A stretch of 64,000 bases of DNA, from assembly GCF_014879935.1 (NCBI RefSeq), contig NZ_JACSRD010000138.1:62001-126000 (forward strand). The letters run 5' to 3'. Made by a program: the position numbers and the translations under genes. The notes below the pieces were generated by a model. The model was not told the DNA's origin, ran no database searches, and saw only the letters and a program-made list of their open reading frames with translations. The stretch comes from Prosthecobacter sp. (lineage in GTDB: Bacteria > Verrucomicrobiota > Verrucomicrobiia > Verrucomicrobiales > Verrucomicrobiaceae). Positions 8,306 through 15,959 of this stretch are shown one piece after another (the stretch's first letter is position 1; every line of letters begins with the position of its first letter).

Positions 8306-8504
8306 CGACGGTGCTGCATTCAGCGAGGGCCGTTTCGAGTGCCTCGCCGTCTTCTCCGACCAGACTCCCGGCGGTGGCGTCGATCATGGCTTCACGGCTG
8401 CGACGGCGATCCTTGAGCAAGGTGTGAATGAAATCGGCTGTCTCCTCCAACTGGTCGGCTGGGAGGCGGCGCAAATCATCGAGAAATGGCAGCACGGATG
8501 TCAT
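8289..8504 (-). CDS. Antitoxin partner of the PIN toxin
   Basis: A 71-residue acidic protein directly upstream of and overlapping the PIN toxin gene by 17 bases. The N-terminal half (VLPFLDDLRRLPADQLEETADFI) resembles the DUF2281-type antitoxins, with a helix that scores peptide-binding Leu and Phe residues. The C-terminal half is acidic (GEDGEALETALAEC), as expected for a toxin-neutralising tail. The functional call is by context plus this weak similarity. Autoregulation by DNA binding is usual for the class, but I see no clear operator in the 60 bases upstream. Confidence 0.7.
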   Translation of the reverse strand: MTSVLPFLDDLRRLPADQLEETADFIHTLLKDRRRSREAMIDATAGSLVGEDGEALETALAECSTVDESAW

Positions 8505-8563
8505 GGTGGCGAGAATACGTCCGAGGCAGCCTCATGTCGATGGCCTTTTGCCCGACCAGCCGC

Positions 8564-9613
8564 TCAAATGTCGTTCTCCTGCAAATCGAAGGCCTCATCA
8601 AGCATCGCCCCATCGAGGAGATGCTCGATGAGATGACGGGCCAGCCAGGGGGCGCGGAGAGAGCCTTTGGAACCGAGGCCGTTGAGGAAAGCGACGCGTG
8701 GATGGGTGGGATGTGTGCCCATCAGGGCCTGACGGCCTTTGATGATGGGGCGCACGGCGCTTTGGGCGGTGATGATGTCAGCAGGCGTGTGCAGCAGCGT
8801 GCCGAGGGTGGCTTCGAGCTGTGCGACTTGCTCCGGCGATGGCGTGTTCGGATCGGTGAAAGTCCATTCGTAGGTGGAGCCGGCACGGCAGGTGCCGTCG
8901 TTGCGTGGCAGCAGCCAGCAACCTCGGTTCACGATGCGCTTGTCGCCGTGCAGATCGGCTTTGACGGTCAAAATCGTGCCGAGGGCGGATTGAAACGGCA
9001 CCCAGCTGAGCAGCGGATGCTGCGCTGCGTTCCAGCCGTTCGCCCAGATCACGTGCGAAAAGCGTTCGCCCCTCCAATCGATGCCATTGGCATCGTCCAG
9101 CACCTCAGAGGGACTTGCATCGGCCTGCCGCCATGAATCCAGCGAGTCAAAGAAGCGGCGGCTGGCCTCCAGGAAGGCGGTGGTGTCCAGCCAGGCGGCG
9201 TGCCGTTGCTGAAAGCCGTTTTGCGGGTCACGAAACACGTCTGCGCTCAGTTTCGGCTCTCGCGGGTGGAGGAAGCCCTGCATGTCGGCATCGTGACGGC
9301 GCTTTTGCCACTTCGTCACCTCCTGCTCGCTCTTCAGCAGACGGACGTAGCCGCGGGGGAAGAAGAAGCGCTGCCGCAGTTGCTTCCCACGCTGGCGATA
9401 GAATCGCAGTGCTTCTCGATAAAACATCGCGTAGCGCCAGCTCACAGTGAGGCGCATGCCGGTGATCGGCGTGATCAAGCCGGCGGCGACTTTGGAGCAG
9501 GTGACCGGTTCGTCGCGATCCACGATCAGAAACGGCACGCCGCGCTCCCACAACCGCCACGCCAGCGCCGTGCCGGCGAGTCCCTGGCCGATGATGAGGA
9601 TGCGGGATGCCAT
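8564..9613 (-). CDS. FAD-dependent oxidoreductase, DAO family (MnmC2/MnmL-like)
   Basis: A 349-residue flavoprotein. The N-terminal Rossmann motif is ILIIGQGLAGTALAWRL with Asp/Glu-type ending VDRDEP. The C-terminal FAD-contacting segment is NGLGSKGSLRAPWLARHL, which resembles the GSRGL..AP..A motif of the MnmC FAD domain. That domain, and its stand-alone Bacillus counterpart MnmL (YurR), converts cmnm5(s2)U34 to nm5(s2)U34 in tRNA. The fold assignment is firm; the tRNA role is inferred from this motif and from the mnmM-like gene downstream. It lies 18 bases after the hypothetical secreted protein gene and 59 bases before the antitoxin gene, all in one orientation. A generic D-amino-acid or glycine oxidase remains possible. 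Confidence 0.72.
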   Translation of the reverse strand: MASRILIIGQGLAGTALAWRLWERGVPFLIVDRDEPVTCSKVAAGLITPITGMRLTVSWRYAMFYREALRFYRQRGKQLRQRFFFPRGYVRLLKSEQEVTKWQKRRHDADMQGFLHPREPKLSADVFRDPQNGFQQRHAAWLDTTAFLEASRRFFDSLDSWRQADASPSEVLDDANGIDWRGERFSHVIWANGWNAAQHPLLSWVPFQSALGTILTVKADLHGDKRIVNRGCWLLPRNDGTCRAGSTYEWTFTDPNTPSPEQVAQLEATLGTLLHTPADIITAQSAVRPIIKGRQALMGTHPTHPRVAFLNGLGSKGSLRAPWLARHLIEHLLDGAMLDEAFDLQENDI

Positions 9614-12449: not shown

Positions 12450-13862
12450 TCACCCCATGATCCCCGGCACCAGCTCGCCGTGGATGTCGGTGAGGCGGTA
12501 GTCGCGGCCTTGGTAGCGGAAGGTGAGACGTTCGTGGTCGAGGCCGAGCAGGTTCAGCACGGTGGCATTCAGATCGTGCGTGTGGACGGGATTTTCGGCG
12601 ATGTTGAAGCCGAAGTCGTCGGTCTTGCCGTAAACCGTGCCCGGTTTGATGCCGCCGCCGGCCATCCACATGGTGTAGGCGTCTTTGTGGTGGTCGCGGC
12701 CGGGGGCGGTCTTGGTGCCGTCGCCATTGATGCCCTGACGCAATGGCGTGCGGCCGAATTCGCCGCCCCAAATCACCAGCGTCTCGTCCAGCAGGCCGCG
12801 TTGCTTCAAATCACGCACGAGGGCGGCCATGGGACGGTCCACGTCCTTCGCTTTGGCGGTGATGCGTTGCTTGAGGCCGCCGTGGTGGTCCCAGTCGGAG
12901 TCAAAGAGCTGCACCATGCGCACGCCGCGTTCGATCAGCCGGCGGGCGAGGACGCAGTTGTTGGCGAAGGAGGCTTTTCCCGGTTCGGCACCATACATGT
13001 CGAGCGTGGCCTTGTTTTCCTTCGTGATGTCCATCAGCTCCGGCACACTGGCCTGCATGCGGTAGGCCATTTCATACTGGCTGATGCGGGTGGCGATCTC
13101 AGGATCACCCACGACGCCGAGCTGCTGCTCGTTGAGCGCTTTGACGGCATCGAGCACCTTGCGGCGGTCTTTGCTGCTGTGGCCGGCGGGATTGCCCAGA
13201 AACAGCACCGGCTCGCCGCTGCCGCGGAATTGAATGCCCTGATACACGCTGGGCAGGAAGCCGGTGCTCCACAGCGAGGTGCCAGCGCCGCCGGGCGGAC
13301 CGGACAAAAGCACGACGTAGGCGGGCAGATCGCGGTTTTCCGCGCCGAGACCGTAGGTGACCCACGCTCCCATGCTGGGCCGGCCGCCCTGGCCGAAACC
13401 GGTGTGCAGAAACATCTGCGCTGGCGCGTGATTGATCTCGTTGGTGTGGAGGGATTTCACCACGCAGATGTCATCGGCCACGGTGCCGAGATTTGGCAGC
13501 AGCTCGCTCAATTCGAGTCCGCTTTGGCCATGACGCTGGAATTTGAACTCGGTGCCTGCGAGGGTCATTTCGCCACCGATGAAGGCGAAACGTTTGCCCT
13601 TTGTCAGCTCCTCCGGGCACTTCTGGCCGTCCATCTTCTGCAGCAGCGGCTTGTAATCATACAGATCGAGCTGCGAGGGTGCGCCGATCATGTGCAGGTA
13701 GATCACATGCTTCGCCTTTGGCGCAAAATGCGGCCGTGGAGCCGGAGCCGCGGGCAGATCCCGCGCCAGCAGTGAACCCAGGGCCGCCGAACCGAGCCCA
13801 AGCCCGGACCGGTGGAGAAAATGGCGGCGTGAGACGCGCAGGAAATCAGGCGTGGCAGTCAT
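12450..13862 (-). CDS. Tat-exported DUF1501 protein
   Basis: A 470-residue DUF1501 (sulfatase-fold) protein. A Tat signal is visible: [20 protein letters not shown]. Family motifs include [19 protein letters not shown] near the start, [13 protein letters not shown], the [10 protein letters not shown] block and WGGEFGRTP, followed by [24 protein letters not shown]1501 genes are abundant in Planctomycetes and Verrucomicrobia and normally follow a DUF1549/DUF1553 cytochrome partner. No such partner is in the window: the upstream gene is a small membrane protein. Biochemical function is unknown. Confidence 0.92.
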
Positions 13863-13904: not shown

Positions 13905-14315
13905 TCAGGCCTCCGGCCGTCTGGCGAAGCAGCGTGCCCCAAACACGAGCGCCAATGTCGTCATCGCGCCCGTGGCATCCGCGATGAGATCCCGCATGGT
14001 TTCGTGGATGCTGTGCTGGATGTGCGTGTGATAGACGACATCGGACAACAGCTCCGCGAACTCCCAGAACAGCCCGACGGTGCAGGCCAGGGCAAAGGTG
14101 AAGAGATAACGCGCAAAGGCCGTCAGCGTGCCAAACCACGACGCAAAACAGTCCAGCGCATGCCAGAGGAAGTAGGAGATCGCGACTCCGCCGCTGTAAT
14201 GCATGACAAAGTCGAGCGGCTGACGCCAAGGTGTGTTGAAGATGACCCGGTGGAAGATCAAGACGGCGACTGGAGCCCAGCCGGCACGTAGCATGAGCCG
14301 GATCAGCGGCGTCAT
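13905..14315 (-). CDS. Small integral membrane protein
   Basis: A 136-residue protein with about four hydrophobic helices (VAVLIFHRVIF, GGVAISYFLWHAL, LFTFALACTVGLFW, TGAMTTLALVFGA). The segment WEFAELLSDVVY followed by DLIADATGA resembles the DUF2238/VanZ-like arrangement of an acidic loop before the last helix; this is a weak match and no function follows from it. The start at 14315 was chosen because it overlaps the stop of the exonuclease gene as TGATG, implying translational coupling. The longer open frame upstream is basic, non-protein-like sequence inside the exonuclease gene. Confidence 0.7.
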   Translation of the reverse strand: MTPLIRLMLRAGWAPVAVLIFHRVIFNTPWRQPLDFVMHYSGGVAISYFLWHALDCFASWFGTLTAFARYLFTFALACTVGLFWEFAELLSDVVYHTHIQHSIHETMRDLIADATGAMTTLALVFGARCFARRPEA

Positions 14316-14860
14316 CAGGCGGCCCAGTTGACCTTCACGCTTTGTTCGCGGCCGTTGCGGTCGTGATACTTCACGTGGCCGTTCTGCGCGCCGTATTCGT
14401 GCACGCACTTGGTCACTTTGACGTCGTAGCAGCAGTATTCGGCGATCTTTGCCACCTCGCCCTGCTGCCACCACTTCAGCGCATCCAGGCCGTCAGCGGT
14501 CTTGCCCATGCCCAGCGTGGCGGCGGCGACGGCATCGAGCTTGATGCGATGGCCGAGCGCTTTTTCCAGGTCGATGAGCATGTCGAGGCTGCGCAGTTGA
14601 TCGCGGAAGTCGAAGATGCTGTGGCCCATGAGCACCTCGTAGTCGAAGCCCACATGGTTGAAGCCGACGACGAGATCGGCCCGACGGAGCTGCTCGATGA
14701 GGGCGGAGGATTCATCCTCCGTGTAGATGGTGTACTCGTTCAGCTTTGTGCTGAAGGTGACGGCCACGGAGATGCCCATCATGTGTTTGTTACCCCAGCC
14801 GCCCACGTCATTCGCGGTGCGGCGTGTTTCGAGGTCGAAATAAACGATGTCTCCGGCCAT
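14315..14860 (-). CDS. DEDD-family 3'-5' exonuclease-like (RNase H fold) protein
   Basis: A 181-residue protein with the DnaQ/YprB-like exonuclease layout. Exo I is YFDLET (Asp9, Glu11), Exo II is VVGFNHVGFDYEVL with Asp in the usual place, and Exo III is AEYCCYDVKVTK with Tyr and the last Asp, i.e. a DEDDy set. The region resembles the predicted PolB-like or YprB ribonuclease H superfamily (PF13482). By family knowledge it would trim 3' ends of DNA or RNA in the cytoplasm. It lies 21 bases after infA and is coupled to the membrane-protein gene downstream by a one-base stop/start overlap. Confidence 0.8.
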   Translation of the reverse strand: MAGDIVYFDLETRRTANDVGGWGNKHMMGISVAVTFSTKLNEYTIYTEDESSALIEQLRRADLVVGFNHVGFDYEVLMGHSIFDFRDQLRSLDMLIDLEKALGHRIKLDAVAAATLGMGKTADGLDALKWWQQGEVAKIAEYCCYDVKVTKCVHEYGAQNGHVKYHDRNGREQSVKVNWAA

Positions 14861-14881: not shown

Positions 14882-15298
14882 TCAGCCGATGCGGTAAACG
14901 ATGCGTGCCTTGTCCATGTCGTAGGGCGACATCTCGATCTTCACAGCGTCGCCGATCACGAGACGGATGAACTTCTTGCGCATCTTGCCCGAGATGTGGG
15001 CGAGCACTTCGTGTCCGTTGCGCAGCTTCACGCGGAACATGGTGCCGGCGAGCACGGCGGTGATGACGCCGTCGAGCTCGATGGCTTCTTCCTTGGCCTT
15101 GCCACCTTGTTCGGGTTCCGGCTCACGCGGCGGTGGCGGAGTGTAACGCTGCTGGGGACGCTGGGAGGGGCCGCCGCGATTTGGCGGACCGCCCCGGCCG
15201 GGAGGACCACCACGGTTGGGCGGGCCGCTCCGATTTGGGGGACCACTACGGTTGGGTGGGCCACTGCGTGACGGGCCGCGATTTGGAGGAGGAGGCAT
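14882..15298 (-). CDS. infA: Translation initiation factor IF-1 with Arg/Gly/Pro-rich N-terminal extension
   Basis: Residues 67-138 are a complete IF-1 ([15 protein letters not shown]..., then [18 protein letters not shown] and ending [11 protein letters not shown]), the OB-fold factor that occupies the 30S A site. Usual length is about 72 residues; here 66 extra residues precede it, built of GPPNRSG/GGPPGRG-type repeats and a [11 protein letters not shown] spacer. The codons for residues 2-71 contain no Met, Val or Leu, so no internal ATG, GTG, TTG or CTG start exists before the IF-1 core, and the extension must be translated. The extension is disordered and RG-rich, so RNA binding is an inference. 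It is transcribed towards the exonuclease gene and divergent from the ECF sigma gene. Confidence 0.93.
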
Positions 15299-15446
15299 GC
15301 TGGGAAAAAGTAGGCCGTGAGAATGCTGCCACAGACGGGGAATACAAGGGTAAAATTGCCGGGGGCCGGGCGGAGTTGCACTGGTGGGCAGCTCAGGCAG
15401 ACAAAAACCTCGCCCTCATGCGTCCTGTCCGTGAAACTGTCCTCCG

Positions 15447-15959
15447 ATGCCTGCCGCGCCCACCTTGCCTGAACTCTACGACGCTCATGCGGCCGGGCTG
15501 TTTCACTACTTCAGGAGCTTCACGCGTGAAGAGGCCGATGCAAAGGACCTGCTGCATGACTTCTTCATCAAACTGGCCCGGCAGACGATTCCACCGGGCA
15601 TTTCCAACCTGCGTGCCTGGCTGCTGCGGCTGGCGCATCATCACGCCATCGACTGGCTGCGTCGGCATCGTGTGCGGCGTCGGGCGGAGGACCAGTCGCA
15701 GGCCTTGGTGGAAATGTTTGCTCCGCAGAATGATCCGGATCAGGAGGCGCTGGCACGACGCTTGACGCAGGCGCTGGCCATTCTGCCGCTGGAGCAGCGC
15801 AGCGTGGCGCAATTGAAGCTCTGGGATGGACTGACCTTTGAGGAGATCGCGGAAGTGCAGGGCATTCCGCTGAACACGGCTGCGAGCCGTTATCGCTACG
15901 CCCTGGAAAAGCTGCGCAGCGAGCTGCGGCCGCTCTACGACGAACTGAAACCGTCATGA
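15447..15959 (+). CDS. ECF-family RNA polymerase sigma factor
   Basis: A 170-residue sigma-70-family ECF factor. Region 2 is visible as LYDAHAAGLFHYFRSF...ADAKDLLHDFFIKL, with NLRAWLLRLAHHHAIDWLRRHR as the -10 recognition helix. Region 4 is LPLEQRSVAQLKLWDGLTFEEIAEVQGIPLNTAASRYRYALEKLR, a helix-turn-helix contacting the -35 element. It redirects polymerase to a small regulon. The stop overlaps the start of the next gene by four bases (ATGA), so the product of that gene is its likely partner. No typical ECF autoregulatory promoter stands out in the 148 bases upstream. Confidence 0.93.
   Translation: MPAAPTLPELYDAHAAGLFHYFRSFTREEADAKDLLHDFFIKLARQTIPPGISNLRAWLLRLAHHHAIDWLRRHRVRRRAEDQSQALVEMFAPQNDPDQEALARRLTQALAILPLEQRSVAQLKLWDGLTFEEIAEVQGIPLNTAASRYRYALEKLRSELRPLYDELKPS

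Follow-up and report, generated by a model that had tools for sequence, protein, structure and literature searches.

The infA gene of Prosthecobacter sp. in the window (by which we mean the whole analysed stretch of DNA, 64,000 nucleotides in length) codes for a translation initiation factor IF-1 in which the OB-fold core is preceded by a tail of 66 residues. In the loci that we read, such a tail is encoded, selected, basic, spread over the whole order to which this species belongs, and exclusive between the two ends of the protein. IF-1 is usually regarded as a minimal, tail-less OB-fold factor, and the IF-1 proteins of E. coli and Streptomyces are not known to carry a tail. Judging from the sequences, we give about even chances to the idea that the tail acts as a position-tolerant, basic, disordered RNA-binding element which strengthens the hold of IF-1 on the 30S subunit.

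The window gene is a genuine IF-1, and no other was found in its genome (Table 1). The protein was matched by the IF-1 equivalog profile TIGR00008 over residues 69-136 and by PF01176 over residues 73-136, in both cases above the respective cut-offs of 61.15 and 30.2 bits, and its closest named contigs are those of Prosthecobacter/Verrucomicrobiaceae. In the AlphaFold model, for which a 32-row alignment served as input, the core forms an OB fold with pLDDT values of 91-95, the extension reaches 48-66 by blocks of ten residues, and the last strand comprises residues 127-137 of 138 with nothing after it. The best 14 matches of a Foldseek comparison against the PDB were bacterial IF-1 structures (TMt 0.69-0.97), followed by eIF1A/aIF1A. 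The first-pass annotation had raised beforehand the objection that a second canonical infA might carry the function; the search for such a gene returned the window infA as the sole PF01176 match (E <= 0.001) in this genome of 7.7 Mb, which is 97.3% complete, so the objection falls away. In some other genera of the order, a second short, degenerate IF-1-like ORF lacking the KMRK motif was noticed at the loci L215, L216, L217, L219, L220 and L222; the one of L216 scores 36.4 bits with PF01176, and the window genome is without such a match.

Alignment to solved IF-1s places residue 67 at residue 1 of their 72-residue chains (residues 68-136 of the query correspond to chain residues 2-70), in agreement with the first-pass annotation, which had let the core begin at this residue behind an extension of 66 residues. 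It had also held that codons 2-71 offer no ATG, GTG, TTG or CTG start and that the extension is obligatory. When residues 1-80 were scanned for ATG, GTG, TTG, CTG, ATT, ATC and ATA codons, only the ATG at position 1 and ATC at positions 73 and 79 were detected, and Met, Val, Leu and Ile are absent from residues 2-72, which bears out both statements. A start just ahead of the core is thus ruled out, as there is no candidate codon for it. Upstream of the ATG, the frame is open for 39 codons, among which CTG and ATT codons are present and ATG, GTG and TTG are not. Residues 2-66 comprise 23 Pro, 13 Gly and 10 Arg, and units of the type GPPNR(S/G)G span residues 13-43, closing in a stretch (residues 29-43) that conforms to the tri-RGG arrangement, i.e. 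three RGG with spacers of no more than 4 residues. This composition and the low pLDDT fit the earlier description of an Arg/Gly/Pro-rich, disordered-type tail with such repeats. The repeat is visible at the protein level, and no tandem array was reported for the DNA by Tandem Repeats Finder. Acidic residues ahead of the core are common to the IF-1 of many relatives.

Table 1 The infA gene of the window, parts of its product and neighbouring genes (positions within the window).
Feature	Position	Strand	Evidence or remark
infA, translation initiation factor IF-1, 138 aa	14882..15298	-	ATG at 15298; TIGR00008 100 bits, PF01176 79.4 bits
N-terminal extension, residues 1-66, Pro/Gly/Arg-rich	15101..15298	-	pLDDT 48-66; in-frame pN/pS 0.139
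15-residue stretch, residues 29-43, tri-RGG arrangement	15170..15214	-	protein sequence
Glu/Pro hinge EPEPE, residues 59-63, tail/core junction	15110..15124	-	protein sequence
IF-1 OB-fold core, residues 73-136 = PF01176 positions 1-64	14891..15082	-	profile and structure matches
20 bases ahead of the infA ATG, without Shine-Dalgarno-like match of at least 5 bases	15299..15318	-	
Divergent ECF sigma factor	15447-15959	+	neighbour of infA
RNase_H_2-superfamily protein	14315-14860	-	directly downstream of infA
DUF1501 protein	12450-13862	-	neighbour of infA

The extension shows the signature of a translated and selected sequence. Over 19 pairs of related loci, its pN/pS was 0.139 and that of the core 0.029; these pairs were chosen by us (21 tried, 2 identical, 19 used), share branches with one another and were evaluated with the starts picked before ten hand corrections. 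Read in the two other frames, the extension gave pN/pS values of 1.88 and 2.03 (9 equal-length pairs among the 19), and this contrast is so large that it would be hard to obtain without translation in the IF-1 frame. The three-frame contrast and the spread over the order rule out that the extension is an artefact of annotation or chance.

PF01176 is present in 284/288 genomes of the phylum, in 51/56 relatives and in 137/141 genomes of the order. From the latter, of which only part of the matching genomes were fetched, we read 122 loci from 37 genera and six families, with starts picked by rule and the ten corrections made by hand, counting as a tail at least 10 residues at either end; L198 (f62g174, no start codon between stop and core), the paralogue loci L214-L223 and the named loci L061-L120 stand outside these 122. 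An N-terminal tail was found in 98 loci (14-171 residues) and a C-terminal one in 23 (23-66 residues), tails at both ends in none of the 122 and at neither end in a single locus (L193, genus f62g172). By genus, using a median of at least 5 Lys/Arg, 31 of the 37 carry the tail at the N-terminus, five at the C-terminus, none at both and one at neither, so that a basic tail is present in 36/37 genera; the Fisher value on these counts is 1.4e-5, which is not a clean probability since the genera are related. The C-tailed genera all belong to f62, a family that also includes seven N-tailed genera and one with neither tail. The pooled N-tails consist of 22% Gly, 19% Pro, 16% Arg, 4% Lys and 5% Asp plus Glu, and in several genera the tails comprise only 14-35 residues. 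Thus, the extension seen in the window is not an oddity of one gene: it occurs order-wide, and in 23 loci it has its counterpart at the C-terminus.

In the class outside the order, a short C-terminal tail was recognized by eye in 29/35 loci. These comprise 28 of the 29 loci L224-L252, where the tail has about 13 or more residues and is usually Arg-rich as in RNAPIRSFGPRRR (likewise by eye), and one (L007) of six further loci. Outside the class, a canonical start is present no more than 10 codons ahead of the core in 61/64 loci, a count from a sample that is partly best-scoring and partly author-chosen and in which the near start codon need not be the one used. The other three, the f19 loci L027, L310 and L317, have N-extensions of 20-22 codons, and Pro-rich C-tails of about 14-25 residues were seen in the f36 loci L306, L307 and L315; both are perhaps independent IF-1 tails. 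In 15 loci from other phyla (L106-L120), only 2-5 residues precede the core.

Some relatives of the window species appear to start infA at codons other than AUG. In 12/122 loci of the order, the frame contains no ATG, GTG or TTG from the upstream stop to the core. In 11 of these 12, an AAGGAG precedes an AUC or AUU at the beginning of the tail. All eleven (L032-L036, L125, L129, L130, L137, L141 and L178) are from genus g5 (family f2), which we take to be Akkermansia; in each of them the tail begins at the AUC/AUU site and a stop codon is found six or seven codons before. Ten show AAGGAG, then six bases, then AUC (9) or AUU (1), and in L178 four consecutive Ile codons come after the AAGGAG, so that the exact start is ambiguous and was scored as AUU. 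L137 and L141 differ in the third base of the start (ATT versus ATC), and neither has ATG. The twelfth locus, L187, has an AUC without Shine-Dalgarno (SD) sequence. The genus itself is mixed, with 13/23 loci scored as non-AUG and 10/23 as ATG, the latter with mostly shorter tails.

Altogether, AUC, AUU or AUA starts are predicted for infA in 20/122 loci of the order. Closely similar (A)ACAAGGAG...AUC/AUU blocks are also seen in f65g155 and f65g159, with related SD blocks in f2g8 (AUC) and f2g179 (AUA), and the loci of all four genera also hold canonical codons somewhere in frame. Since the start rule favoured an Ile codon with an SD match of at least 5 bases over ATG, the presence of an SD is circular for the 8/20 non-AUG loci with a canonical codon; the 12 loci without one are nearly free of this circularity because 10 of them have a single Ile codon before the core. 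As background, an SD-like match of at least 5 bases precedes 71/722 other in-frame Ile codons. Of the AUG-starting infA loci, 1/101 has such a match and 100/101 have none, among them the window infA, which accordingly is not of the type with a non-AUG start behind an SD seen in the relatives; the 20 bases ahead of these AUG starts are 63% pyrimidine, against 40%. In the f65g155/f65g159 loci L038, L154 and L155, the tail, which seemingly starts at AUC/AUU, contains an ATG three codons ahead of the core, so one gene possibly yields a long and a short IF-1 there.

Genes for infC were read as well. In the window genome, the start of infC (L263 on contig G000:C53, IF3_C match at 8354-8605) is apparently an AUA that follows GGAGG, and the 108 codons from this likely AUA to the conserved IRAPKV are mostly rich in Arg, Gly and Pro (RGP-rich), the C-terminal end of the protein being acidic. 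The IF3 of genome G187 has an RGP-rich N-extension, too. A search of the genome for further RG-rich proteins with the IF-1 extension as query, which is an insensitive approach, did not list the RGP-rich extension of IF3. Across 19 infC loci, the likeliest start in our reading was AUA, AUC or AUU in 13, GTG in 5 and ATG in 1, and an SD-like match of at least 5 bases is present in 9 of these 13. The C-terminal ends of all 19 IF3 sequences, including that of the window species, are rich in Asp/Glu as judged by eye. The RGP-rich IF3 tail in the same genome may reflect a remodelling of both factors, or else a lineage habit and not a mechanism of IF-1.

According to the reading that we prefer, the OB-fold core would, judging by homology, occupy the A site of the 30S subunit in the usual bacterial manner, and the tail would leave the end of the core as a flexible, positively charged RG/P-rich electrostatic tether. 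From there it would touch 16S rRNA and/or mRNA and might raise IF-1 occupancy and the stability of 30S initiation complexes; RNA binding, action on the ribosome and an effect on initiation are what we infer for the tail. Since either end may carry the tail but no IF-1 that we read has it at both, charge and flexibility probably outweigh a fixed docking site, and the mutual replacement of N- and C-tails leads us to favour a position-tolerant rRNA/mRNA contact over a single docking site; that the tail can be placed at the C-terminus at all also argues for a role as charged tether and not for one fixed contact. Counting against a tether, the length (14-171 residues) and sequence of the tail vary widely, as in weakly constrained linkers, its pN/pS exceeds that of the core some fivefold, and one genus has a tail at neither end. 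The variation between species and the higher pN/pS could also mean that a low-complexity expansion under weak constraint is merely tolerated here, or that the tail is removed by proteolysis. We regard this as very unlikely, since a pN/pS of 0.139 and a basic tail in 36/37 genera are not neutral, the tail is N- or C-terminal and never both, and 11 relatives keep an SD with AUC/AUU that can serve the tailed product only.

It is also conceivable that the tail, like the N-terminal tail of eIF1A, reaches the codon-anticodon duplex from the A site, stabilises the closed complex and relaxes start-codon discrimination. According to PMC5756025, the basic N-tail of the homologue eIF1A contacts tRNAi, mRNA or 18S rRNA and favours the use of suboptimal start codons, and the modelled IF-1 matches eIF1A/aIF1A structures after the bacterial ones; the seemingly AUA-started infC of the window genome, the 13/19 infC loci and the 20/122 infA loci with likely or predicted AUA, AUC or AUU starts would suit such relaxed discrimination. 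We nevertheless consider it unlikely, since the C-tails of the same order exit at the opposite end of the core, the eIF1A/aIF1A profiles remain below their cut-offs with the window protein (TIGR00523 32.7 of 102.9 bits; NF003082 25.6 of 108), and non-AUG infC starts are also described for E. coli (ATT) and Streptomyces (ATC) in PMC5472188. The tri-RGG arrangement and the GPPNR(S/G)G units, along with the RGP-rich extensions of IF3 in G187 and in the window genome, are compatible with an RNA chaperone or condensate module of the RGG type that acts off the ribosome and brings IF-1 and IF3 together on free mRNA, e.g. in cold or stress; the tails of 14-35 residues in several genera are small for phase separation, and this proposal seems improbable to us. 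Least probable of all is a pairing of the basic IF-1 tail with the acidic C-terminal end of IF3 that would couple both factors on the 30S subunit: the Asp/Glu-rich ends of all 19 IF3 sequences would allow for it, but the IF3 of G143, outside the order, has an acidic end, too.

As to the consequences of the proposed tether, altered initiation in this group is plausible from the sequences, and the tail together with the rare non-AUG infA starts of some relatives hints at an altered start of protein synthesis. A wider version of this idea is an order-wide remodelling of initiation, with an eIF1A-like tail tuning the selection of SD-less or non-AUG starts and the infA of several genera under IF1/IF3 feedback via the AUC/AUU/AUA start, which we consider rather doubtful. 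If the AUC/AUU starts of the relatives are true, infA would join infC as an initiation-factor gene with this kind of start. The infA of these relatives, including the presumed Akkermansia genus, may then be misannotated wherever gene finders accept ATG, GTG and TTG only. An order with a selected, basic, disordered IF-1 tail at either end also provides natural variants for probing what the tails of eIF1A contribute. We found no description of verrucomicrobial IF-1 tails or non-AUG infA starts in open-licence literature, which is weak evidence of absence.

With bacterial IF-1 (4ql5, 9fco, 1hr0), the window protein shares the core sequence, the OB fold and the single copy found; the solved chains that we found have 71-87 residues, whereas the window IF-1 carries 66 additional N-terminal residues that are RG/P-rich and of low pLDDT. 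Its tail resembles RGG-box RNA-binding tails in having three RGG with three-residue spacers, in being basic and in its predicted disorder, but it sits on a bacterial initiation factor, many of its units are GPPNRSG and not RGG, and RNA binding is putative. The predicted SD followed by AUC, AUU or AUA in infA of the relatives recalls infC of E. coli and Streptomyces, where, according to PMC5472188, the ATT or ATC start lets IF3 repress its own synthesis; the gene concerned here is infA, and the window's own infA uses AUG. By analogy, infA of these relatives might be autoregulated. The nearest functional parallel is eIF1A, which has a homologous OB fold in the A site and disordered tails, the N-terminal one basic (PMC6122471, PMC5756025). 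eIF1A/aIF1A have a helical subdomain after the OB fold, which the window IF-1 lacks, and the tail of the latter is RG/P-rich; the window protein may thus work like eIF1A, but it is not an eIF1A.
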